The notes under the pieces are model-generated. The model made no database searches. It saw nothing but the letters and a program-made list of their open reading frames with translations, and was not told the origin of the DNA. From positions 124,001 to 188,000 of the forward strand of contig JASJFT010000076.1 in the NCBI GenBank assembly GCA_030770425.1: a stretch of 64,000 nucleotides of DNA, given 5' to 3'. Positions 5,519 to 61,930 of this stretch are shown here, piece by piece; within the stretch, counting starts at the first letter, position 1, and every line of letters begins with the position of its first letter. The position numbers and the translations under genes were made by a program. This stretch comes from Darksidea phi. Lineage: Eukaryota; Ascomycota; Dothideomycetes; Pleosporales; Lentitheciaceae.

Positions 5519-7586
5519 ATGACGGGGTCTTTTGTGTCATACCCAGAGTGCTCACCGAAAGATGTTGACGGAAAAGCCTATGATTACATTGTTGTTGGAG
5601 GTAAGGCTGGGCTCGCTTTCGGGATTGTCCTTCTCTAACCGCGGAAATGCAAAAATCTAGGTGGAACGGCCGGTTGTGTTCTCGCTTCACGTCTGTCCGA
5701 GGACCCGAACGTTTCCGTTCTTCTAATTGAACGAGGACATGTGAAGAATAACCTTGTTTCGCGAATGCCATTACTGAGCCAGAATCTGTTTTGGACGGAT
5801 ACCTTGCAGGTTCAAAGCACAATCTGGTCAGAGCCGATACATGGTGCCCACGGGAGGAGCAATCGGCTTTGGGCGGTCAACGGCATTGGTGGTGCTTCTC
5901 GCCTCAACGCCATTCTCTGGACTCGAGGCAGCCCGGGAAATTATACAACGTGGAGCAATATGGGCTTAAAAGATTGGGCATGGGATAAGGTTGAGCCCTA
6001 CTTTAGGAGGCTTGAGAATGTTATAGGGCCGTCAGATATGCTTCAGTCTGGTGTGAGAGGTCGTGGCGGACCCATCGAGTTGCTCAAGCCCCCGTATCCG
6101 TTCAAGTGGCTAAAGTAGTAAGCCTCCTTCGAGCTTGGGGTGAATGTGAACCTAAACTAATATTCATCTCGCAGCCTCGAGAAAGCGGCTAGAAACATTG
6201 GTCTTTCGACTTTGGACGACTGCAACGACCCAGGAGCCCCTTCATGCGGCTACTTTCCCCTCGAAACTGCCATTGACAAGAATGGTGAAAGGGTCTCGGC
6301 CTTGACGGCGTACCTGAGCAAAACCGTTGCCCGAGAGAGGATTAAGCGGTTAAGCGTGTGCACTGGCACAGTTGCGTCTCGCTTGGAAATAGCCGGCGAC
6401 GAAAAAATTGGGCGTGCCGTCACTGGGGTCTATATTCGGTCTTCTACTGGTCCAAAAACGGGCAGGGACTATCTCGTCAAAGCCCGAAGAGAGGTCATTC
6501 TAGCTTGCGGAGCCATGACCACCCCCCAATTACTGCTTCTCAGTGGGATTGGACCCAGTGGGGAAGACTCGACCGAATCTAGTCTCGGCATACCCCTCAT
6601 CAAAGAGCTGCCTGCCGTGGGAGCCGACTTCTCTGACCACTACGCCATCCCGATAATGCTCGAGCTACCCAGGAAGGAGACGCTACACTTGCTTGAGAGT
6701 GCAATATGGGGCCTTTGGTATATACTTTTATGGATCTTCACCAGAAAAGGGTTGGTGGGCTTCAGCTCAGCACCAACTGCTATCTTCCTCCATACGGACT
6801 CAATCGATGAGGCAACGATGCAAGTTACGACATCTCATACACAGGACCCATCGCAAAATTACGAAGTTCCTAATATCGAAATTATGATCATACCTCTCAA
6901 CTCACTTGAACGCGCCGTGCCAGGGCGCTCGCTCTTTTCTATCTATCCCACAATACTGCAGCCTCGGGCAAAAGGTAAAGCTCCAAATCCACTCCTATAG
7001 AGGCGAATGACCAGTAATCACTAACGCTTCATTAACAGGCCGCCTCGAGATAACGAGTATGGACCCCCTTGTTAATCCCAAAATAACGCATCCAATGTTC
7101 GGCCACAAGGACGATCTAAAAGCGGCTCGGCTCGCCGTTCGCTTATCTATGCGGTTGGCTGCCGAGTTCCAAACGCTATATCCATTCTCAGCTCCCTTTG
7201 CATTTGCGCCTGGTAATGAACTGCAGGCTCTCAGTGAGTGGGAGAAGCTAGGTGGGGTCGAACCATCACCCGTTGAAAAGACGGTCATAGGGTCAACACT
7301 AGCAAACAAGACATGGAGTGACGTTACTGACTACGAGATCGATGACTACATGCGGAGGGTAGGCCACACTGCTCTTCACTTCTCGAGCACATGCCCTATG
7401 GGTACGGACGAGAAACATGGAGTCGTGGATCAGAGGCTCTTGGTCTTCGGCTTCAAAAATCTAAGGATTGCAGATGCGAGTGTACTCCCCAAGATCACAA
7501 GCGCACACACGATGGCTCCTGTTCTGATGGTTGCTGAGAGGTGTGCGGATTTTATAAAGAGCACTTGGAGCGGTACACAAACCTAG
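5519..7586 (+). CDS. GMC-family FAD-dependent oxidoreductase
   Basis: Four exons (5519-5600, 5661-6117, 6175-6974, 7039-7586) with 60-, 57- and 64-bp introns give 628 residues, normal for the family. The FAD-binding motif DYIVVGGGTAG is assembled across the first intron. The second GMC signature contains NGIGGASRLNAILWTRGSPG. The C-terminal domain carries HFSSTCPMG and, near the end, SAHTMAPVLMVAE, placing the usual pair of active-site His positions. These enzymes oxidise alcohols (aryl alcohols, glucose, choline) with FAD; the substrate here is unknown, and no secretion signal is evident. The ATG at 5519 is the nearest in-frame start giving the usual short lead before the Rossmann fold. It pairs divergently with the dehydrogenase. 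A 166-bp piece of this gene is duplicated in inverted orientation at 8211-8376. Confidence 0.9.
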
Positions 7587-7800
7587 TGCACTTTGCATCA
7601 TGAACAAGTTCCATGTACTACGCCTAAAGTTATTCCTCGATTGCATGAAAGGCAGTTTCTCTCATTTTCTAGATAGCTTCTTTACATGATATCTTACGCC
7701 CTCCAGTATCACGGACTGTTGCACCCACCAAACCAAGGGGGCTACATTGCAAAGTTACAGGAGCCCGGCTGTAGCCCATATCCCTATACCTTGTGCTCTT

Positions 7801-8095
7801 ATCGAATGAGTAGCAGCCATCGCGTCGTCAAACTCGCGGAATAACCCAAAAAGGTAACGCAAAAAGGCATTTCGTCCCGAATACCTTGAAACGCAAGAAG
7901 ATTGTTGGATGCAGTCATCAATTGTGATTACCTGAGGCGTCACGACATGACTGCGAGGGCAACGGCTCGAGCCTCATGAAAGAGGGCGCAGAGGCCGTAG
8001 AGGTTCAGCTGTTATGGATTCTCCGCTATCGATTTACCGTTATCGATTTAGCCGTTAAGGCTCATCAGGCTCCCTGTGTATTACGGAACACCATC
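7801..8095 (+). repeat. Dispersed repeat R1, copy a
   Basis: Shares long blocks with 10316-10475 and 61722-61930 (for example CATCGCGTCGTCAAAC and TTTCGTCCCGAATA). Its right half (GTTATGGATTCTCC, TTATCGATTTAGCCG) is also found near 30660 and 50780. This copy shows the fewest C-to-T changes. No protein is recognisable; it is likely a non-autonomous or decayed mobile element. Confidence 0.75.
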
Positions 8096-9879: not shown

Positions 9880-10270
9880 CGAGGCTGCACTTCAAATAGT
9901 ATGCAAGTGCGGGCCGATATCGTACGTGCGTTGGACCAATTGCTCCTCCTAGATGATTGACCGGTCTGACATGCATGCCGAGACGGAAGCGCCGAGGTAT
10001 CCCCGCTCGCACACCGTTCACGAGCTTACATAAGTCCCAGCTAGATGTTAGGCGACATGGTTCATGTACTAAAATTATATCATTATGGCGAGACATCACT
10101 TGCATTCTGCGTTTGCCTCGGTGTGGTGTAGAGTACCGGCATATGATTGGTGGGAGTACAAGCGGGGAGGGTAGCGAGTAAGGGGCTCAACAAAAGACCG
10201 CCGACCGATGATATCAAAACCCGTCGATTTCCCATCCATTCGTAGCGCTAAGCTAGTTGGGGGGGAAGCC
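9880..10270 (+). repeat. Dispersed repeat R2, copy a
   Basis: Shares blocks such as GACATGCATGCCGAGACGG, CGTACGTGCGTTGGA, TCATTATGGCGA and GTTTGCCTCGGTGTG with 31070-31600, and the first two, mirrored, with 50240-50320. No protein is recognisable. Confidence 0.75.
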
Positions 10271-10315
10271 GCCCGGGCCTAGAAGCCGCCTATCTATCTA
10301 AATTGGGCCGTCCTT

Positions 10316-10475
10316 AATCGAATAAGTAGTAGCCATCGCGTGGTGAAACTCGTGGAATAACCTAAAACGGTGATACAAAAAGGCAGTGCGTCCCGAATAT
10401 CTTGAAACGCAAGAAAGTTGTTGGTTGCAGTCATTGCCCGTGATTGCCCGAAGCGTCACGGCACGACGAGAATAG
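10316..10475 (+). repeat. Dispersed repeat R1, copy b
   Basis: Matches copy a (7801 onward) over about 155 bases: AGTAGCCATCGCG, GTGATACAAAAAGGCA, CGTCCCGAATA, AAACGCAAGAAAGTTG. It has scattered transitions and stops matching near GGCACGACGAG. Confidence 0.75.
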
Positions 10476-26753: not shown

Positions 26754-27833
26754 ATGGGGCAAATGTCGCCTTCTACAGAGTCAGCGCCCTACCTCCTATC
26801 GTACCGCAGCCAAAACCAAGAAGAAGACAGGCGCCTCGATTCGCAACACGATGTGATCACCCACGCCATTCTAGGCGGGCACTTGATTCATCCATCCATT
26901 CCCCTATCCGCCATTCAAACTTCTATTGCCGACATTGCATGTGGCACCGGAATTTGGCTGAAGGATGTCAGAAAGGCTTATTTCCCTGCTTCTTCTAGAG
27001 AGATAAACGGCTCTCCCGTTCTCGTCGGATTTGACGTCAACGCCCACGCCTTCGATCCCGACTTCGCAACAACCATAAAGCTCATTCAACACGACTGCAC
27101 CAAGGACTTCCCTTCCGAATACATCGGCAAATTTGATTTAGTCAACATGCGCGGTCTTGCGTATGCTGTTCCTAAAGAAGGCTTTTCCCGCTTGGTCTTC
27201 AACGCAATCAAGCTTCTTCGTACGCATATCCACCACTCTCAATCATATATAGCTAGATCTAACCTACTTACAGGGCCTGGCGGTTACCTCCAATGGTTGG
27301 AGACAGAAACACGCCTCTTCAGGCAATACCCTGTGTCTGCCGACTTTACGGAAGCCATTGCTGCAATCAATACGGAAAGACAGTCTCGAGGTCTTGTCAC
27401 TGAGTATAAACATTCCTCCCCTTCTTGCTATGCGTACTCATTTTCATGCAGCATGCCACAGTTCATGCTCCGCGCACTCCTTCAGCAGCATATAGAGCAA
27501 GCCACGAATGAGTCAGTATTTCGCGCAGATACGATGTCGATCCTCCATTTCAACCTCCTTCCAGGTGGAATCTGCAGGGATTTGGGGCTCCGAATGGATC
27601 TAATGAACAGGCGTCTCTCCGAGACGGTCCTCGAATCAGTCAAGCTTCTTTTGGCCGCCTCCTTGAGGGAAAACCACAATGGAAGCCAAAAGGGATGCTC
27701 AGAGGCGTGGAGCGAGGAAGAAGCAAAGAAAATACATAGACTTATGGATGGCATTGACACGATAATGAAATCTGATGAAGTGATAGCGGGCGGTATCTTT
27801 CCCCAGCTAATTGCTCAAAAATCAATCGAGTAA
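26754..27833 (+). CDS. SAM-dependent methyltransferase
   Basis: Starts at 26754 and ends at 27833. An intron at 27220-27273 (54 bp) restores the motif KLLRPGGYLQWLE; a possible second intron at 27404-27451 (48 bp) keeps the frame. The product is about 325-341 residues. Motif I of class I methyltransferases is clear (TSIADIACGTGIW), followed by an acidic strand (LVGFDVN), a motif II-like FDLVNMRGL and the post-motif GPGGYLQWLE. The N-terminal RLDSQHDVITHAILGG resembles fungal secondary-metabolism methyltransferases. It is convergent with the UstYa-like gene. Ustiloxin and phomopsin clusters also contain a methyltransferase, so a role in modifying the RiPP is plausible but inferred; a LaeA-like or unrelated role is possible. 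Confidence 0.8.
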   Translation: MGQMSPSTESAPYLLSYRSQNQEEDRRLDSQHDVITHAILGGHLIHPSIPLSAIQTSIADIACGTGIWLKDVRKAYFPASSREINGSPVLVGFDVNAHAFDPDFATTIKLIQHDCTKDFPSEYIGKFDLVNMRGLAYAVPKEGFSRLVFNAIKLLRTHIHHSQSYIARSNLLTGPGGYLQWLETETRLFRQYPVSADFTEAIAAINTERQSRGLVTEYKHSSPSCYAYSFSCSMPQFMLRALLQQHIEQATNESVFRADTMSILHFNLLPGGICRDLGLRMDLMNRRLSETVLESVKLLLAASLRENHNGSQKGCSEAWSEEEAKKIHRLMDGIDTIMKSDEVIAGGIFPQLIAQKSIE

Positions 27834-28048: not shown

Positions 28049-29078
28049 TCAAGGCGGAGACTCGAGCTCCCGAGCTCCCGGCTGTCGCTCGATGCGGTGG
28101 CCCTCTTTGGTGTATGTTTGACGCTCACTAACCCAATCTAGGATTGCTTCGAAGTTACGGCATTTATGCTGGCTGACCATACAATTAGCGAGGTTTGAGT
28201 AGAAGGTGGAGTATATGACAGCAATGTTGTGCACAACAAGAATCGATGGCTACTTACACGTTGAAGTCTGGGAAAGGAGCGGGATGGCCTTTCACCCAAA
28301 CGTATGTGAGTATTCCTGTGTCCGCTTCACACATCAACTTTTGCCGTAGATTATCGATGCAGTGGCCTTCACATCCTGTTAGCGTTTTCCTTCGGGCTTA
28401 CTACTCGAGTCCATGTGAATAAAACCCACCAAGATGATAGCGAAGGATCTGTGGGCTGTCTTCCCATGGCTCTGCTTTGTCTTTGTAGTAGTCTTCGTAT
28501 GTCGCTTGCCGCAGCATATTAAGACAGTGAAGTTGATGTAGAACCTCAACAGATGCCATATAACCGCCGCCCATCTCTGGTGATAGCTTGACAGAGTACT
28601 CATGGGACCCGTTGACCTTGTGCAAAGTTTCCGCATCGATGCTAATCACACCCCCTGGGGTAGTTAGAAAGAGCCGCTTATCCGTTCAACAGCCGTAGAA
28701 AGCTTACTTACCATCTGCCATTAGTATACGATCCCAAGCTTGATCCATCAATGGATTTGGAGTTCCCTTGTAAGCGTTCGGCGTGGCGAAGCTCCCATCA
28801 AATCGATGGAAATGGCCAGTATCTTTCACAGCCTTGAGAAGAGGTGACCACATCGGCATGAAGTCTCGGTCGTGACATCCCGCAGAAGCTCCATGATGAA
28901 GTCTTACGCCTGAGAGAAGGATCGCGCAAGAGGCTGTGAAGAAGACTACCTGAGGAATCCAGACCCAAACACGACGTGCCCATAGTGACTGCCGGCATGA
29001 CATACTCAAGGCTTGAGCATCTTCCGTATCTGATCTCTCACTGAAAAGTTCTTCCGGAAGTCTTTCATAATTGTACAT
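28049..29078 (-). CDS. UstYa-like (DUF3328) oxidase
   Basis: Four exons on the minus strand (28712-29078, 28430-28654, 28258-28375, 28049-28172) with introns of 57, 54 and 84 bp give 277 residues, typical for the family. A single membrane segment lies at about residues 38-57 (VWIPQVVFFTASCAILL). The first family motif HxxHC is HQLHC at residues 162-166, within VEVLHQLHCLNMLRQ. The second, usually also HxxHC, reads CEGHC at 199-203, followed by the expected IDNLRQKLMC and ADTGILTYVWV. The C-terminal part keeps KCRNFEAILDWV. UstYa proteins catalyse oxidative cyclisation of core peptides in dikaritin RiPPs, probably at secretory membranes. It lies divergently next to the precursor gene. The Cys in place of the first His of motif 2 is notable. 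Confidence 0.9.
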
Positions 29079-29934
29079 ATTGTTGGTAATGCTGGTAAAT
29101 TCAAGCGCACAGAGGGGAGTAGCGAGGATCACGAAAAAAGGATGGGAATAGCGAAGACCATGAAAAGCGGAGGGGAATAGCGAAGACCCTGAAAAACGTA
29201 CGCATTCATCTTGTCTGGGATGGATTCCCAGTGTAGCATCGCATATTCTGCCTGGAATAATCTGACCGGAATTCGTTCTATCCGCAAGTGCCAAGTGTGG
29301 CAATAGGATACCGCTGGTACGGATTGTCATCATCGCACCTTTGTAGCGCAGGTAAACAAGGGTCATCTCCTTGAGGATTCCTGGTTCAGGCAGGTGGGAT
29401 TAGGACCTCTGCTTCGCCGACCCTACGTTCGGTAAGATAATCACAAGCGGTCTGACTTGAGTCGGTCCCCGAAGATAAATGAATACTACCTCTCGTGACC
29501 AGATGCAGCTACGATACCCTGGTCTAACGCCGGTTACCTGCTCATTCCAAAGAATTGTATGCAATAAGTTAGCCAAGGTTTCTGCTATGCATTGAACCCA
29601 GAAGAAAATTAGGCAGCCATCAGTGGGGTTCAAGGATGAAGATCACTCGCCTCTAGATGCCTAGGGCGTATCGAAAACCGTTTCACACCCGACACGGCGG
29701 TAATCCGTTAAGCCAAGGGTCATATGATGGTGCTAGGGACCCATGCAGCTCGTTTTCGCATGGGGACTGACGAGGAACTGTTGAATCATATGCCATTGAA
29801 CATTTAAGTCCAGAGGCAGTCAATTTGTGGAAACCTTAACCCTCATCTTGAACCACCTCGCGGTGATACTTGCGTTCTATCATACCTCCAAGACCGAATT
29901 CCAACCCTCAAATCTTTTGCTTTCAATTAGCATC
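29079..29934. promoter_or_regulatory. Divergent promoter of UstYa-like gene and peptide precursor
   Basis: 856 bases between the divergent starts at 29078 and 29935. The part from about 29400 to 29934 is also present, inverted and diverged, next to the decayed precursor copy (51097-51680). No individual binding site was identified. Confidence 0.45.
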
Positions 29935-30207
29935 ATGCAACTCAAACTATTTCTCCTGTTTGCCTCCATGGGCTCTGCTCTTGCAGCGCCCGTTGTTCAA
30001 TTGGAGGCACGTAAGGGGGAAGATGGGGCGGTGCTGAACTCACGCTTCGCCAAATACGAAGCTGAAAAGCGAGACGCCGAAGCCGAGCCCGAGAAAGCCA
30101 TCCTCAACTCCCGCTTCGCCAAGTACCAAGCCGAAAAGCGAGACACCGAAGCCGAGCCCAAGAAAGCCGTCCTCAACTCCCGCTTTGCCAAGTACCAGGC
30201 GGAGTAA
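29935..30207 (+). CDS. Dikaritin-type RiPP precursor peptide
   Basis: An ATG at 29935 (CATCATGCAA) opens 90 codons. Residues 1 to about 18 are a signal peptide (MQLKLFLLFASMGSALAA). Then come three repeats spaced exactly 69 bp, each containing LNSRFAKY followed by (E/Q)AE; the first two end in the Kex2 site KR and a D(A/T)EAEP spacer. The last unit stops after QAE. This plan (signal peptide, Kex2-cut repeats, a short core with aromatic residues) is that of dikaritin precursors such as UstA and PhomA. The likely core lies in RFAKY, with Phe and Tyr available for cross-linking; the exact borders are inferred. The EAEP spacer could be trimmed by dipeptidyl peptidases. A mating-pheromone precursor is the main alternative, but the usual Trp/Cys-rich core is absent. 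The adjacent UstYa-like gene strongly supports the RiPP reading. Confidence 0.85.
   Translation: MQLKLFLLFASMGSALAAPVVQLEARKGEDGAVLNSRFAKYEAEKRDAEAEPEKAILNSRFAKYQAEKRDTEAEPKKAVLNSRFAKYQAE
30028..30207 (+). repeat. Three 69-bp coding repeats of the precursor
   Basis: Units start at 30028, 30097 and 30166 (the last is 42 bp). Units 2 and 3 are nearly identical; unit 1 has more synonymous differences, so the last duplication is the most recent. Confidence 0.9.
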
Positions 30208-30519
30208 GAAACTCAACGCTTTCCCGAATTGAGCAGTCTCCGACCGCCGATCGCCCAGTTGGATGCAAATGTCACTGTTGATTTCTATGATCTCAAGTTG
30301 CTTTTCTCTCAAACTTCGAATGAAATGGGACGTATTGACAAAAGATATGGGGTTTGGGATGGTGGATAGCTATCACTCATTTAATTCTACCATGTCTACT
30401 CTGAATCACATGTCTAGCCACTCCGCTCGAAAGAATGTGAAGTATTCTCAAAGTGTCCGAGTTCACGTAAAGACTCATTTCTGCGTAGCTCTGGTTTGCT
30501 GGGGAGCATGCCATTTGCA

Positions 30520-31600
30520 ATGACTCGTAGTCGTCCTGGACACACCGCAGCCGGGTGTCACCATGGCAAATTTTTTTACTATATGCCAGTATCGCGGGTG
30601 CCTCAACAGTTGCACCGCTATCCTCAGCGTCCTCCTTGGCGTAGAGGCCGTAGAGGCTTAGCTGTTATGGATTCTCCGTTATCGATTTAGCCGTTAGGGT
30701 TCAGTACCTCCCCTGTACATGACAGAACACTATCAGAAAATGGTACCCGACGACAAGGCAACAATAAGGTAACGAAAATGAATTGGTCGAATGCAAGAGA
30801 AGTTCATGTGACGGGGCTCCTGCATATCTTGGGGGCTATCCATTCTCCTGCCCGTTCTAGATTAGGCTGACCCGTCGTTCGCGCCGTTGAGGATCATCGC
30901 TGCTGCTGCATATGCGAGAGTCCTGCGATGTTTCAGTATGGTAAATGAGCCAAGAACTCTCGATACGGGCTTCTGCATTGAAAGCGTATCATCAAGGCGG
31001 GAGACAGACAGAAGATCTAACACTAACCCCAGATGGAACTGCGCCTCCCGCCGTGCGATGAGGCTCACATGCAAGTGCGGGCAGATAGCGTACGTGCGTT
31101 GGAATAATTGGTCCTCCTAAATGAATTGATATTGATTGACCGGTCTGACATGCATGCCGAGACGGAAGCGCCGAGTCAACCCCTGCTCACCCCTGTACAA
31201 CCAGAGAAGATGATGTAGATCACCGTTCACCAGAAGTTACTAAACGGCTAGCGTAAACCTAAAAGTGACGTTGTACAAAGTGCTTGTAGGGACTAAAGAT
31301 CCCATTCCTTCATCGTCAGCAAATACAAACAGTGTTGCGAGGTCGACATTTGTTTCACAGGGCAAACGTTCAACGGACTAAAATTACATCATTATGGCGA
31401 AACATTGCCTGCATTCTCCGTTTGCCTCGGTGTGATAGTACTGAGATATGATTGGTGGAAATACGGGGAGGAGGGTGGCGAATGAGGGGCTCAATGAAAA
31501 CCACCTAACGAATTATATCAAAACGCATATGCAGTATCACAGTGGAAGCTCTCGCTCCTAGGGTCCATGAATGCCTCATCCATTCGCAACGCTAGCCAAA
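30520..31600 (+). repeat. Dispersed repeat R2, copy b (long)
   Basis: Contains all blocks of the R2 family: GGCAAATTTTTTTACTATAT near 30565, TTATCGATTTAGCCG near 30680, ACAGAACACTATCAGA near 30722, GACATGCATGCCGAGACGG near 31147, and the blocks shared with 9880-10270. It directly follows the precursor gene and is also present next to the decayed precursor copy. Confidence 0.75.
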
Positions 31601-40306: not shown

Positions 40307-42412
40307 TTACCTAGGTGAGGTTTCCCGATCTGCCTCGAGCGTAGTTCCAAGCTGACAGGAGTGTGTGGGCTCCTCCAAGATCTCCCAAACTTCTAGACCT
40401 GCTCTGTGACTGTCATCTACAAGATTTATGCTCATAATTCGAGTTTTTTTTAGAATCGCGTCTGACTGAATCAATGACATGAACCGCTTCTCGAGATATT
40501 GCATGTAACTCTCGACGAGTCCCAAGGAGAAGTTCCGGGAATATTCAGGGAAATATAGTTCCACAGGATTCGCCTGCAGCCATTCTCTGATCATATCTAT
40601 CTTGGTGAAGACAACGATGAAGCTGCACGCCCGGAACAATCGACTGTTCACAATAGAGTCGAATAGGTCCAGCTGTTCCTGCATTCGATTGACCGTTTCA
40701 TCCTCGTATAGTAATTTTGCGTAATTGCGGGCATCGATCGTGAAGGTCACTGTTGAGGGGTTCCCGAAGGTATGGATCCATTTTTTCCTTTCCGATCTCC
40801 TTCCTCCTACGTCGCTGAACTTGTACGTGAGATTTTTATATAACAAGGAGGTTTCAGTAATGCCGCATGTCATGATTCTACTCCTTAATATGTCTTCGAT
40901 GGTAGGTTCGTAGGTAGGAGACAGAAGCCTTTCGATATCAATGGCATAGTGCCGAAAGCTATCATTTAGCTGATATTCCCGCCTTTGCCTATATGCATCT
41001 TGATATCCGGAATCGCCCCAAAGTGATTTGATGGCATGAATGACTTCAGGTTTGGGGCAGTCTTCGCAGTGATTTGGTTGCATGAATATTGTTTGGGCGT
41101 GGTATTCATTCCTCTCATCTTCCAGCCGTAGCTCAAGCGACTCCATGGCTTCCAGTACAACCCGAGCGCTTTGAATGGCGTTGGGCCATATAATCTCACG
41201 GTAATATAGCCGCCAATCCAAAGTGTATTGTTGTTGCAAGCATAATCGTAACGCGAGCAGCAGCGTGGACTTCCCGCTCTCTGAGGTACCAAGAAGCAAT
41301 ATCTCCGGCGTTGGTACATTCTCACTTGGAGTCCAGTCTGGAATATCTTTGCGTCGTAGTGGCTTCCTCCACCAACTGCTCAAACGAAAGGTGCTTGGCT
41401 GCCGTGCAGGCTCAACTAACCGGGAAGACTTTGACGAGGATATCGTGGCTAGAGCTGTCGTTGCTTGCTTATTCGGACGTTCTGGAGGTCTTTTATATGT
41501 ATTTTGTGCCGCTGGTGATTGCCGGTCGAGACTTCCCGTAGGAATTAACTCGTCGTTTCCGTTATCTTCAGACTCTCCTTCTCTTCTCTCATCTGCAGTC
41601 CGGCCAGTTGTTTCATCTTTGATTGATATGGTTGTGCTGGCATCATCGTGTGCAATCACCTCCATAGTAGGAATAGCCTTGTGGCCATTTCCCGCCCTGA
41701 TGGCTTGTCTTAAGTGAGATCTTTCCGCCTGCTGGTAGATTCTTGAGCCGAGTATCAAATTGTCAAAGTCAAACATAACACTAATATTAGCGGTAGTTTC
41801 CGAAATGAAGCTGTGTGTATCATTAAGCCCAAATATCGAGGACGAACAATCTTTAGCAAGTGTTAATACACTCTGACTTCCCTCCCAGCCCATAACGCTT
41901 TGCTGTTGTGCCCAAGTTTGACTACATAAATGTTAAAAGATCCCACTAAATTTATTCAATGAGACGTACCATTGTATGGCTTGAAGCAACAAATTCAGTG
42001 CATTTACCTGTCGGTCAAGTAGGGTCGAATAATCGGCCATCTCTTTCTCGCTCCAAAGGAACTTGATTCTACTTTTGGCTCCAATACCGGATGAAATAGA
42101 CGAGTCGAGCGGATCAGGTTGTTGCTGAAGAGCGAGAATCAATACACCAAAACTTTCAAGAGAGTTTCCAATCTGCAAGGCCAGTTCCCGGTACCTCGGG
42201 TGGCGGTGGCCGTCGTTCTCTGCCTTGTTCCAGACCGACAACTGATCGAGTGCTGTTCGGACGATGTATAGTTGCCCGATCATAGTGGAGATGTGTAGGG
42301 GGGCGTCGTGATACTTTGTTTTGAGAGAGCTTAGCCCTGTGATGCATTTCACGACGACATCGCCCAGAGAGACAGCCGCGCCCACAATCTGGGAGATTGT
42401 TACAGGGTCCAT
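40307..42412 (-). CDS. STAND-type N-terminal domain fused to G-alpha-like GTPase
   Basis: Two exons on the minus strand (41970-42412 and 40307-41921) with a 48-bp intron give 685 residues. Residues 1 to about 150 (MDPVTISQIVGAAVSLGDVV, later KFLWSEKEMADYSTLLDRQV) are the same type of helical domain found at the N terminus of both NACHT receptors in this window. A low-complexity linker follows. The C-terminal half is a G-protein alpha subunit: P-loop LLGTSESGKST, switch I RSRIMTCGITET, switch II DVGGRRSERKKW, and VVFTKIDM in place of NKxD. The switch II catalytic Gln is Arg, which predicts weak or no GTP hydrolysis, and no N-terminal myristoylation site is present. It may act as a signalling switch downstream of recognition; this is inference. 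Confidence 0.83.
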
Positions 42413-49979: not shown

Positions 49980-50660
49980 GACGAACCACGCCGTCGCCAC
50001 CGTACCCGGCGCTAATGGCATTACGGAAGCGGGGGCGAATGCGAGCTCGGCACCCGTTTCTCGTCCCGACCGACTCGGCTGAAAATATCGATATTCGCCT
50101 GCCCACCTCCGAAACCCACCCCCAACCAGGAATAATGGCCACGTGGGTTCTACCAACTTCGACTTACGATCGTGACCTACATTCTCTCGTCTGGTTGGAT
50201 GGAGGTGAGCAGCAATGTCTTGACGCTCCCGTCCCGGCATGCATGTCAGATCGGTCAATCAATATCATTTCATCTAGGAGGACCAGTTATTCTACCGCAC
50301 GTGCGCTATGTGCCCGCGCTTGCATGCTGTTTGATATGCAGCCTCGTGGTACGGTGGGAGGCGCAGTTTTATCTAGGGTTAATATGAGAGCTTTCTGTGC
50401 CGTCCCCGCCTTAGCGATAAGCCTTCTGAATCATCGCAGCACTCTCGCATACGCAACAGCAGCGATGATCCTCAACTGCGGGAGCGGCGAGTCTGCCTAG
50501 TCTAGAATGGGCAGAAGATAGATAACCAGTAAGACATGCAGGGGCCGCATCACATGGAATTCTCTTGCATTTAATTAATCGTTTTTCGTTGCCCTCTTGT
50601 TGCCTTCTCGTCGGGTCCTATTATCTGGTGGTGTTCTGTCATATATGGGGGCTGCTGAAC
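49980..50660 (-). repeat. Dispersed repeat R2, copy c (inverted)
   Basis: Mirror image of 30700-31240: GGCATGCATGTCAGATCGGT near 50240, CGCATACGCAACAGCAGCGA near 50450, GTGGTGTTCTGTCATATA near 50629. It belongs to the inverted duplicate of the precursor locus. Confidence 0.7.
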
Positions 50661-50664
50661 ATTA

Positions 50665-50815
50665 TAATGACTCGTACTTATTCCGAATGTATCGTAGTTT
50701 GGTGCCACCAAGGCAAATTTTTTTACTATATACCGAATATTGTCGAGTGCACCAACAGTTACACTGTTTTCCGTTATCGATTTACCGTTATCGATTTAGC
50801 CGTTAAACGGCATTC
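50665..50815 (+). repeat. R2 inner segment in opposite orientation
   Basis: ATGACTCGTA, GGCAAATTTTTTTACTATAT and TTATCGATTTAGCCGTTAA run in the same direction as at 30520-30695, although both flanks are inverted relative to that copy. It may be a separately mobile piece. Confidence 0.65.
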
Positions 50816-50859
50816 TCCCCGGTAAACTAGAGCTACTCGGCAATAGGCCCTTACCTGAA

Positions 50860-51096
50860 TTAGGACACTTTTGGTATTTCGCCTGGTACTTGGCTTAACC
50901 AGAGTTGAGGATGGCTTTCTCGGGCTCGGCTTGGGCGTCTCGCTTTTCGGCTTGGGCGTCTTTTCGGCTTCGTGCTTGGCGAAGCGAGAGTCCAACACCG
51001 CGCCTTCCTCCCCCTTGCGCGTGCTTCCAATCGAACAGCGGGTGCTGCAGGAGCGGAGCTTATGAAGGCAAATAGGAGTAATAGTTTGAGTTGCAT
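50860..51096 (-). pseudogene. Decayed duplicate of the RiPP precursor gene
   Basis: The minus-strand start at 51096 gives MQLKLLLLFAFISSAPAAP, a signal peptide matching the intact gene at 29935. A two-base insertion after the leader shifts the frame; the shifted frame still carries AVLDSRFAKHEAEK. Further indels scramble the repeats, which dissolve near 50880. At most one core-like unit (SRFAKH) is visible. It is non-functional as a precursor and lies inverted relative to the intact copy. Confidence 0.85.
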
Positions 51097-51680
51097 GGTG
51101 TTGAATGAAAGTAAACCATTCGAGGGTTGAATTCGTCTGAGGTATGATAGAATGCACGTATTACTACGGGGGGAGTCAAAATAAGGGTCAAGATTTCTAC
51201 AAATCACCTACCTCTAGGCAAAAATGTTCAGTGGCATATAATTCAATAGTTCCTCGTCAGATCCAGTACCCAAAATGAACTACATGGATCTCTAGCAATA
51301 TCCTATGACCCTTGGACTATCGGATTACCGCTGTGTCGGGTGCGAACTGGTTTCCGATACCCCCTACGCCCTGCATAAGGTAGGCGTCTGGAGGTGGGTG
51401 GGTGCCATACTTGAACTCCGCTTGGGCACCCCGTCTAGTTTGAGCACTGATGGCCGCTCCTGCTACACCAACAAAGAAGGATGATCATCTATGGTTGCCT
51501 AATTTTCTTCTGGGTCCGACGCATAACAGGAATCTTGGCTAACGGATTGCATACAATTATATGGAATGAGCAGGTGACCGGTGTTAGATGAGGGCGTCAT
51601 AGCTGCATCTGGTCACAATGGGCAGTACTCATTTATATTCGGGGACCAACTCAAGCCAAACCGCTTACGATTATTTTACC
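51097..51680 (-). repeat. Inverted duplicate of the precursor upstream region
   Basis: Mirrors 29400-29934: TGTCGGGTGCGAAC, AATTTTCTTCTGGGT, GCATACAATTATATGGAATG, GCTGCATCTGGTCACAA and ATTTATATTCGGGGACC correspond to reverse-strand blocks upstream of the intact precursor. Together with 49980-50815 it forms the duplicate. Confidence 0.8.
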
Positions 51681-51774
51681 GAGTGTAGTTCGATGAACGG
51701 TTCCCATACCCTGGTTTTCCCTGGTTTTCCTTATACGGGCAAACTTTCAATTATATCTCGGACCCTCGCCGATT

Positions 51775-53418
51775 TCAGCGTAGAGATGCAGTCAAGCTTT
51801 CACAGCGTATCTCTGAAGTCGGCTGCGATATCCACGTCTCCACATTTCTCTCCCACCCACCTCCCTCAGCTAAACTCAAGTGGTGCGTTGCTAGTAGGCG
51901 AGCCAATGTTATGCGGATAATCAAATCAGCAATATGGTTTCCGAGGCATTGGCGTAGGCCGAAACCGAACCGCCAGTAGCTGTATCTCGTTGCTGACCTT
52001 TGCGTCTCGTGAAACCTTGAGGGACGAAACTGTGTGCTGTCGCTGCCCCATACTGTACTCCGGACATTCAACGAGTGCGTGTCCACAATAAAATTTACGC
52101 CGGCCGGAATCCAGTATCCGCCTACAGCACGGCCAGTCGGCGCTGATTGCGGTACTGGGAATGGTGCCACTGGCCTAAGGCGCGCTGACTCCAAAACCGA
52201 TGCTGCCAGCAGCGTGGACTGGCGGATGACGTACTCTTTCCATGATGTGACGCCGTCGCATGCATCGTGTAGAGAAGGCATTTCCTTGCGAATGGCTGCT
52301 TGGACATCTTGGTTCTTAGCTAGGAAGAACAAGTTCCAGGACAGTCCTCCTATCGTAACGTCCAAGTTCGCAAACAGCATTTCGTCCATGGTCTGCAGCA
52401 ATTGATCCGTGGACATGTCTCCGCTCTCGACGGCCCCGAAGAAGAAAGATATTGGTGCCTTCTCCTTCCTCGTACAGTCGGCTCGGTATACTGCGATGTT
52501 GAACACTTTCCACTTATCTTGGAAGGTCTGAAGGTCGCGAAAAATGCTACTGGGCAAGTACTTGCTCCACCGGAACCTTGTAGAGCCCCCTTGCAGCATA
52601 CGCATGAACACTTTCTCGCGAAGGGGTATCAAGGCTTGGAGATCGTTCCGCTGTCCCTCACTGAGTTCCCCGTAAAGCACCTCGGCCACAATCCAAAACG
52701 GCAGGAATCGAAAATCGCCTACGGGGTGGATTGTGCCGCTATTGAGAGATCCACGTTCCCGGAGAGCGGCAAAGTGTCGCTCGACTGCCTTGGATATAAG
52801 TGGAATATGGCTTGTCGAACCCTTGTGTGTGAAGGGTGCAAAGAACACGGAATGCACGCCGCGCCATTCCGCTCCGCTAATCAGCCCTAGGCAACTCCCT
52901 AGCAGCTGGCCCATGAGCCATCCAGCATTGCCATTCACAGCCTTGAAATGCTTGTCGGAGTCTTTGAATACAGCTTGCACATCGTGAGGATGCGTCAGCA
53001 ATCTGCACTTTCATCAGCTCTTACTTTGAAATATATCCGCTTCATGATGGCACACATACATTTCGGATGTAAATCCACTCCAAATTCGGTAGATACGTCC
53101 GTGGTCGTTCTGCCATTGGGAACCATTTTTCTCGCCCTCCAAGAATTTTCCAATGTCCCCTTGTCCATTTGGCCACTTGTACGGACACGTTGGTAAACTT
53201 CGATATCCGTCAAGAGAGCGAATTGGGTTGGCCCAGGTAAGGTAAAGCTGGAAGGTGAATGTTATTGTCAGTGAGGCAGATGAGTGTATTCCTCGAATAC
53301 TCACGTTGATCCCCCACGACAGAAATCCAACAATTGTCCGACACACAATTCTTCGAAGTAGTCTGCTGATACAAAGAGCAGAAAGTGGGCTAATGAGAAC
53401 TACTATGATGAGCAACAT
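51775..53418 (-). CDS. Cytochrome P450 (1)
   Basis: Three exons on the minus strand (53305-53418, 53060-53247, 51775-53002) with 57-bp introns give 509 residues. The N terminus is a membrane anchor (MLLIIVVLISPLSALCI). The I-helix segment reads ANLDVTIGGLSWNL, the K-helix ExxR is ESARLRP, and the heme-binding loop is FGFGLRQCLGNHI with the axial Cys. It is a microsomal monooxygenase; the substrate is unknown. It lies between the decayed precursor copy and the GST pseudogene. Gliotoxin-type clusters have P450s of this kind (GliC/GliF), as do dikaritin clusters (UstC). The frame is intact, in contrast to several neighbours. Confidence 0.9.
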
Positions 53419-61625: not shown

Positions 61626-61721
61626 GGTGCCGGAGAGACAACGGGCGCCGCAGAGCCAATGGGCACTGTTCGACCGTCGCGGATTCCGAGAGGGGTCGAT
61701 TTGTGGTGGTGTGAGGTAATT

Positions 61722-61930
61722 GAATGGGTAGCGGCCATCGCGTCGTCAAACCCGTGGGATAACCAAAAGGGTGATACAAAAAGGTATTTCGTCCCGAATA
61801 TTTTAAAACGCAAGAAGATTGTAAGTTGTAGTTATTATCTAAGGCTTACGTTATGGTATAACTACGGGTAACGGCCTGGGCCTTATAAAAGAGGGCGTAT
61901 TATATACTACAAACAACGGCTAGAGCCTTA
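61722..61930 (+). repeat. Dispersed repeat R1, copy c (RIP-mutated)
   Basis: Aligned by eye to 7801-7995, it shows many C-to-T and G-to-A changes and few other differences: GCAGTCATCA there is GTAGTTATTA here, CGAATACCTTGAAACG is CGAATATTTTAAAACG, and CCTCATGAAAG is CCTTATAAAAG. It occupies the divergent promoter between the second P450 and the MFS transporter. Confidence 0.8.

Follow-up and report, generated by a model that had tools for sequence, protein, structure and literature searches.

A probable dikaritin-type peptide locus with an apparently undescribed core in Darksidea phi: a repeat precursor beside a divergent UstYa oxidase

Five dikaritins, a type of ribosomally synthesised and post-translationally modified peptide (RiPP), had been reported as of a 2022 review (PMC10512285). 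Among the described systems closest to the locus presented here is that of asperipin-2a in Aspergillus flavus, which consists of four genes (aprA, aprY, aprT, aprR), with one UstYa homologue, a Kex2-processed repeat protein (KEP) precursor and no tyrosinase (PMC6514808). Its product carries ethers from Tyr oxygens to beta-carbons, one of them to Phe (PMC6514808; PMC12186524), and a dicopper enzyme of the DUF3328 (UstYa) family is cited for this Tyr-O to Phe-C-beta ether, in an oxygen-dependent reaction (PMC12186524). For CctR, the HxxHC motif is needed for activity and there are two coppers per monomer (PMC12435403). Here we describe a 64,000-nucleotide stretch of Darksidea phi (Dothideomycetes, Pleosporales), termed the window below (positions 124,001 to 188,000 of contig JASJFT010000076.1 of assembly GCA_030770425.1; C452:124001-188000 in the genome analysed, which has 51,351,393 bases and 477 contigs), in which a secreted-type repeat precursor and one UstYa oxidase gene likewise stand side by side. 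We consider it quite probable that these two divergent genes form a minimal dikaritin-type RiPP module, and, judging from the sequence, the product of this small recurring system is probably an undescribed cyclic peptide. A first-pass annotation had already proposed a dikaritin locus; we retain the assignment because both of its defining and testable features, repeats with Kex2 sites and an adjacent UstYa with its pair of HxxHC motifs, are present, and the pair recurs elsewhere. The features of the two genes are as follows, those without further comment being read directly from the sequence.

29935..30207, + strand: precursor gene, 90 amino acids with three LNSRFAKY units; ATG at 29935, stop at 30207; relatives found by protein search
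29935..29985, + strand: probable signal peptide MQLKLFLLFASMGSALA; hydrophobic N-terminus judged by inspection, alike in relatives
30034..30057, + strand: core unit 1, LNSRFAKY
30067..30072, + strand: Kex2-type Lys-Arg site 1
30103..30126, + strand: core unit 2, LNSRFAKY
30136..30141, + strand: Kex2-type Lys-Arg site 2
30172..30195, + strand: core unit 3, LNSRFAKY, then QAE and the stop, with no later Kex2 site
29079..29934, no strand: divergent intergenic region of 856 nucleotides, from the gene coordinates; presumably holds both promoters
28712..29078, - strand: UstYa/DUF3328 exon 1, with a hydrophobic, membrane-anchor-like stretch (by inspection); PF11807 match
28430..28654, - strand: UstYa exon 2, with HQLHC at 28538-28524
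28258..28366, - strand: UstYa exon 3, with HLGHC across the exon 2/3 junction (28436-28430 + 28366-28359)
28049..28172, - strand: UstYa exon 4

The precursor begins with MQLKLFLLFASMGSALA, followed by APVVQ ahead of the repeats. LNSRFAKY starts at codons 34, 57 and 80, with a strict period of 69 nucleotides and an EKR between successive units, and these repeats flanked by Kex2 sites, together with a probable signal peptide judged by inspection, make the protein a KEP. The three Kex2-type repeats are thus as the first-pass annotation had them, and the end points that it gave, 28049 and 30207, are exactly the stop codons of the UstYa gene and of the precursor. Among the core units, 8 codon differences are silent and none is replacing (three pairwise comparisons), and in the 13 codons of the spacer 1 is silent and 3 are replacing (0 and 3 in a second, overlapping comparison), all of these being small numbers.

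The UstYa gene, transcribed divergently from the precursor at a distance of 856 nucleotides, is complete: four exons encode 274 amino acids, the three GT...AG introns measure 57, 63 and 85 nucleotides, and both copper-type motifs are present (HQLHC at residue 162, HLGHC at residue 196). The match to PF11807 (1.6e-55, 188.8 bits against a cut-off of 25) was scored on a draft of the protein with a different last splice junction. The window holds only this one UstYa, and no close paralogue was found in the same genome, where the best other match reaches 41% over 83 residues. When modelled with AlphaFold2, the Nemania orthologue P0005 (35 sequences; predicted local distance difference test, pLDDT, 74.5; predicted template modelling score, pTM, 0.57) has its two HxxHC motifs on helices 160-175 and 191-211. 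Foldseek found no solved relative in the PDB: of 141 matches with E<=10 the best had 0.67, and none reached 0.001. Searching the PDB by sequence gave a single match, at E 0.81. A scan of the intergenic region for bacterial-type promoters gave results at chance level, irrelevant for a fungus, and was set aside.

A protein search with the precursor returned three relatives with full-length identities of 72%, 63% and 48%. A profile search with the alignment of these three (A1), which scored the 7,993 candidates sharing most words, all proteins of similar length, identified 21 relatives at E<=1, the three included, 20 of them at E<=3e-6. Because there are full-length relatives and 21 profile matches, a chance origin of the precursor can be dismissed. 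The relatives have in common the unit N-[ST]-R-F-x-x-Y, of which 63 complete instances occur in 22 proteins (the window's and the 21). With the pattern N[STA]RF, 64 units are found in the 22 proteins, and the Tyr stands three positions after the Phe in 63 of them; a looser count, which asks for at least two of N, R, F and Y, gives 63 complete units, one with three of the four and five with two, at least two of these five not being units at all. Part of this conservation is built in, as the relatives were found via short words shared with the queries. Some of them (e.g. P0057, P0061 and P0065) have degenerate first or last units. Between Phe and Tyr both positions vary (A, L, I, G, V or M, then T, K, A, S, D or I), and such variable positions between near-invariant N, R, F and Y speak for a dikaritin-type core.

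The dipeptide between Phe and Tyr is the same in 75% of 68 pairs of units within a protein versus 11.6% of 1,885 pairs between proteins, and none of 2,000 shuffles was as uniform, a pattern that repeat homogenisation and shared ancestry explain in part or wholly. One might speculate that N-S-R-F-x-x-Y serves the Pezizomycotina as a conserved signal in the form of a cyclic peptide, not as a toxin, since a recognition signal would be expected to combine a fixed scaffold with an insert that differs between species. The scaffold (N, R, F, Y) would then carry a two-residue code (AK, AT, IT, LT, IK, GT and others), mostly uniform within a precursor and differing between precursors, which would be closed by a one-enzyme dicopper cyclase, be kept by several lichen-associated fungi and serve the recognition of self or partner as mating pheromones do, though in cyclic form. 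We regard this idea as doubtful.

The pairing with UstYa is not limited to Darksidea. The first-pass annotation had proposed a search for co-occurring pairs in other fungi, and this search bears it out. The UstYa protein search returned 51 relatives, co-location with a precursor being judged by matching the length of the longest contig between the two hit lists and adjacency by consecutive locus tags. Six of the 21 precursor relatives matched UstYa-bearing contigs (6,078, 16,658, 154,734, 206,830, 11,370 and 39,091 bases). Precursor and UstYa carry consecutive locus tags in Flavoplaca navasiana (Q9180_003278/003279), Icmadophila ericetorum (MMC33_010133/010134), Pyrenula ochraceoflavens (Q9227_006826/006827) and Heterodermia aff. 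obscurata (Q9195_004184/004183). The UstYa thus adjoins in four of the five precursor genomes with an assigned species, and two further contigs, by their equal lengths, hold both genes; in the fifth, Gallowayella concinna, the precursor lies on a contig of 2,242 bases. Among the hosts of the named precursors, one belongs to the Eurotiomycetes (Pyrenulales) and the others are Lecanoromycetes of three orders (Heterodermia being classed as H. obscurata). All are presumably lichen formers; their records are labelled as metagenome-assembled genomes and could include associated fungi. These data support the view that the pairing is more than a local accident and is found again in several genomes of fungi associated with lichens.

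This recurrence argues against a quite different reading, in which the precursor yields a linear secreted peptide, an alpha-pheromone-like signal or a cell-wall peptide, and the UstYa is an unrelated neighbour. A KEP-like layout is by itself no proof of cyclisation, and the XA/XP dipeptides that Ste13 removes when alpha-pheromones are processed (PMC9769878) are similar to the spacer DAEAEP. However, some relatives, such as P0002, lack Ste13-type dipeptides, LNSRFAKY has neither Trp nor Cys, unlike the Trp/Cys pattern of the pheromones, and pheromone-type KEPs were reported to lack a nearby DUF3328 gene, with three exceptions (PMC7329392). We thus hold a linear product to be very unlikely. The alpha-pheromone pattern WC...GQ.CW had no match in the genome, which leaves no pheromone gene to compare with and says nothing on the precursor itself.

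Of the 36 UstYa rows placed in a tree (the window's and 35 of the 51 relatives), all 7 that are paired with a precursor, the window's included, fall inside one supported branch of 24 rows (100/98), and none of the 12 rows outside it is paired. The nearest rows to the window's UstYa are those of Pyrenochaeta (87% over 199 columns) and Polyplosphaeria, the latter a member of the Dothideomycetes according to a taxonomy look-up, in a branch of three rows (100/100).

Several observations weigh against the dikaritin-type reading. Within the tree the paired label is scattered, with 6 changes, a number as low in 202 of 500 shuffles, and therefore the pairing is not confined to one subclade. The 24-row branch also contains Nemania, Hypoxylon, Aspergillus and Penicillium, and likewise Cudoniella, all without a precursor among the 7,993 scored candidates of similar length, as is the Pyrenochaeta relative; Nemania and Hypoxylon are Xylariales, and Cudoniella is one of the Helotiales. 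A possible reason for such precursor-less members is that the small genes are unannotated. Fifteen of the 21 precursor relatives, that of Gallowayella included, have no matching UstYa contig. We do not count them as contrary evidence, 14 of the 15 coming from jgi, ena and lgn sources, where the UstYa may escape the search because gene calling may break this spliced gene below the length limit. In several relatives, a single Arg or Pro-Arg stands where Lys-Arg would be expected. Finally, an EAE or ENE stretch is common between the Tyr and the basic site, whereas, to our knowledge, the known dikaritin cores end at the Kex2 site.

In the mechanism that we propose for the dikaritin-type module, the precursor would enter the secretory pathway and Kex2 would cut after the Lys-Arg sites, releasing the units. 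The UstYa would be anchored in the membrane, face the lumen, act as a dicopper enzyme through its two HxxHC motifs and oxidatively cross-link each N-S-R-F-A-K-Y unit. The likeliest bond would be an ether that joins the phenol oxygen of Tyr to the beta-carbon of Phe at the third position before it, two hydrogens being lost. The ends would afterwards be trimmed by general peptidases, Kex1 among them, and the peptide, now cyclic, would be secreted. A locus without tyrosinase fits the asperipin-2a scheme, which likewise has a single UstYa homologue. Phe and Tyr are chosen as the linked residues because of their conservation and spacing, a tentative choice to which we give a little less than an even chance. 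A para-ether at this spacing makes a ring of 17 members, and asperipin-2a has a ring of the same size. The conserved Asn and Arg ahead of the Phe may be recognition residues or a part of the product. The calculated [M+H]+ values, linear and minus two hydrogens, are 684.383 and 682.367 for RFAKY, 998.542 and 996.526 for LNSRFAKY, and 1496.786 and 1494.770 for AVLNSRFAKYQAE.

The UstYa could instead modify the precursor by hydroxylation, halogenation or desaturation, without closing a ring, and leave a linear modified product, all three reactions being reported for DUF3328 proteins, which also cyclise (PMC12435403; PMC12048977; PMC10512285). We judge this to be unlikely: for ustiloxin, phomopsin and asperipin-2a, cyclisation is described as dependent on UstYa homologues (PMC7329392; PMC6514808; PMC10512285), and two aromatic residues at a fixed spacing, near-invariant in the family, suit a cross-link.

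The window also contains a second, broken precursor and a methyltransferase-like gene:

50172..51682, - strand: diverged second copy, in inverted orientation, of the block 29429-31223 with the precursor and its flanks but not UstYa, by self-comparison
50868..51096, - strand: broken precursor copy, frame lost, stop in the last unit, by sequence comparison
26754..27833, + strand: methyltransferase-like gene with an intron at 27220-27273 (exons 26754-27219 and 27274-27833); reads through; sub-threshold Pfam matches

The duplicate (51682-50172 against 29429-31223) is 76% identical over 1,413 aligned columns. The comparison shows a past duplication of the precursor segment without its enzyme, followed by the decay of one copy. 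A diverged duplicate whose precursor is broken (51096-50868) might indicate that the whole locus is decaying and that the first copy may not be expressed. Against this, the precursor at 29935-30207 has an intact frame and perfect cores, with only silent changes within them, and the UstYa gene is whole and its splice sites are undamaged; a decaying locus seems to us extremely improbable. That repeat-induced point mutation broke the copy has at most a mild hint in its favour: TpG changes to TpA at 22 of 94 sites from the intact sequence to the copy and at 5 of 68 in the reverse direction, and other contexts change nearly as often. The duplicate block adjoins a P450 gene at 51778-53010. Diverged repeats are shared among 9901-10220, 30994-31524 and 50172-50412 of the window, and also among 7798-7951, 10313-10467 and 61717-61836; they are probably remnants of mobile elements, and one of these families borders both copies of the precursor block.

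The methyltransferase announced beyond the oxidase held up as an open gene, arranged tail to tail with UstYa, but less well as a methyltransferase, its scores lying below the cut-offs of all four Pfam methyltransferase families matched (best 25.3 bits against 27). It is a possible third member of the module, although this partnership is weakly supported. Otherwise the locus is as small as first described, with a single UstYa and no tyrosinase: the 27 genome-wide matches listed for PF00264 are all outside the window, and none of the 7 listed for the S41 peptidases (PF03572) lies on C452. The nearest tyrosinase-like match, partial and with stops, is outside the window at C452:115655-115843, about 36 kb from UstYa. 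Fifteen frames of the window, a part of the neighbouring exons, were scanned against Pfam and included frames with kinase and fungal rhodopsin domains, a hydrolase, a G-alpha protein, a semialdehyde dehydrogenase and a P450; no transporter, peptidase, tyrosinase or reductase family was recognised among them. The asperipin-2a type has adjacent transporter and isoflavone-reductase-like genes. The G-protein alpha subunit domain (40310-41932, 262.7 bits) lies in an open frame of 541 codons, with some 200 residues ahead of the domain.

Other UstYa loci of the same genome were surveyed on 19 of the 21 further contigs that carry matches, all but C456 and C461, with a repeat finder that requires an uninterrupted frame and so misses spliced repeats. 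A second KEP lies beside UstYa matches of the opposite strand (C17:6297-6774) in locus L039 (C17:1600-11500), at about 6877-7263; it has a signal-like exon MKLSLVLLSVAAGALAVP and then three units, VGNLWHAKDDHKR, VGNLWHTKDDHKR and VGNLWHAKDD. A third, KEP-like gene, at about 6700-7570 of L030 (C59:50600-60500), also neighbours an opposite-strand UstYa (C59:55290-55731), and its signal-like start is followed by repeats rich in Gly and Lys, GKGLGALFGxNKRE and ERRHHKGKGG. At C2:25978-33522, three UstYa matches lie less than 8 kb apart and may represent a larger UstYa cluster; at the C2 loci L027 and L028 the repeat scan, limited to uninterrupted frames, found no KEP.

How the locus stands among known systems depends first on its core. 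N-S-R-F-x-x-Y differs from the FYYTGY of asperipin-2a, and the first-pass annotation was right that LNSRFAKY is unlike the described dikaritin cores: it matches none of them, and the core motif was not found in the text of open papers (supplementary KEP tables and figure logos were not covered). In the main text of the KEP survey Umemura 2020 (PMC7329392), which has 838 types, neither SRF nor TRF nor RFG appears, and every RFA is a part of some ordinary word (a search of the text without its logos and supplementary tables); among the conserved KEP motifs in the accessible part of Le Marquer 2019, none is like NSRFxxY. The family may thus stand unnamed in a published list and could be one of the 838 types. 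With ustiloxin and phomopsin the locus shares a multi-core precursor, here of secreted type by inspection, Kex2 sites, a UstYa oxidase and a conserved Tyr, but those systems have YxIx cores, a tyrosinase and larger clusters, whereas the window has one UstYa and, among the matches listed, neither a tyrosinase nor an S41 peptidase. Victorin and the epichloecyclins likewise come from KEP-type multicore precursors in or near the dikaritins, but with other cores and with Phe-Leu and Tyr-Ile links, respectively (PMC9233826), as against the likely pair of Phe and Tyr here.

The KEPs of Umemura 2020 have a signal peptide, which is probable for the precursor here too, and share Kex2-flanked repeats with it. 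A DUF3328 gene was among the 15 closest genes in 1758 of 7878 of them (22%), and Tyr occurs in types G-5/P-1 and G-6, near which DUF3328 genes are frequent (PMC7329392). As KEPs with such neighbours are common, the locus is new within a known type and not new in principle. In lichens, a 2025 survey of RiPP clusters found HxxHC oxidases widespread in the Lecanoromycetes, with Icmadophila ericetorum especially rich in clusters, and reported that neither of its two clans had conserved repeats (PMC12048977). Here precursors adjoin UstYa in lichen-named genomes, and these pairs are a candidate answer for a part of the lichen UstYa enzymes. What the locus adds to the described systems is a precursor family with its enzyme adjoining and a conserved core that names the residues likely to be cross-linked, in a two-gene form small enough for rebuilding in vitro. 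The same paper on KEPs proposed that they moved from linear mating factors to cyclic products (PMC7329392), and if the core were indeed a species-coded signal, the family would bear directly on that proposal.

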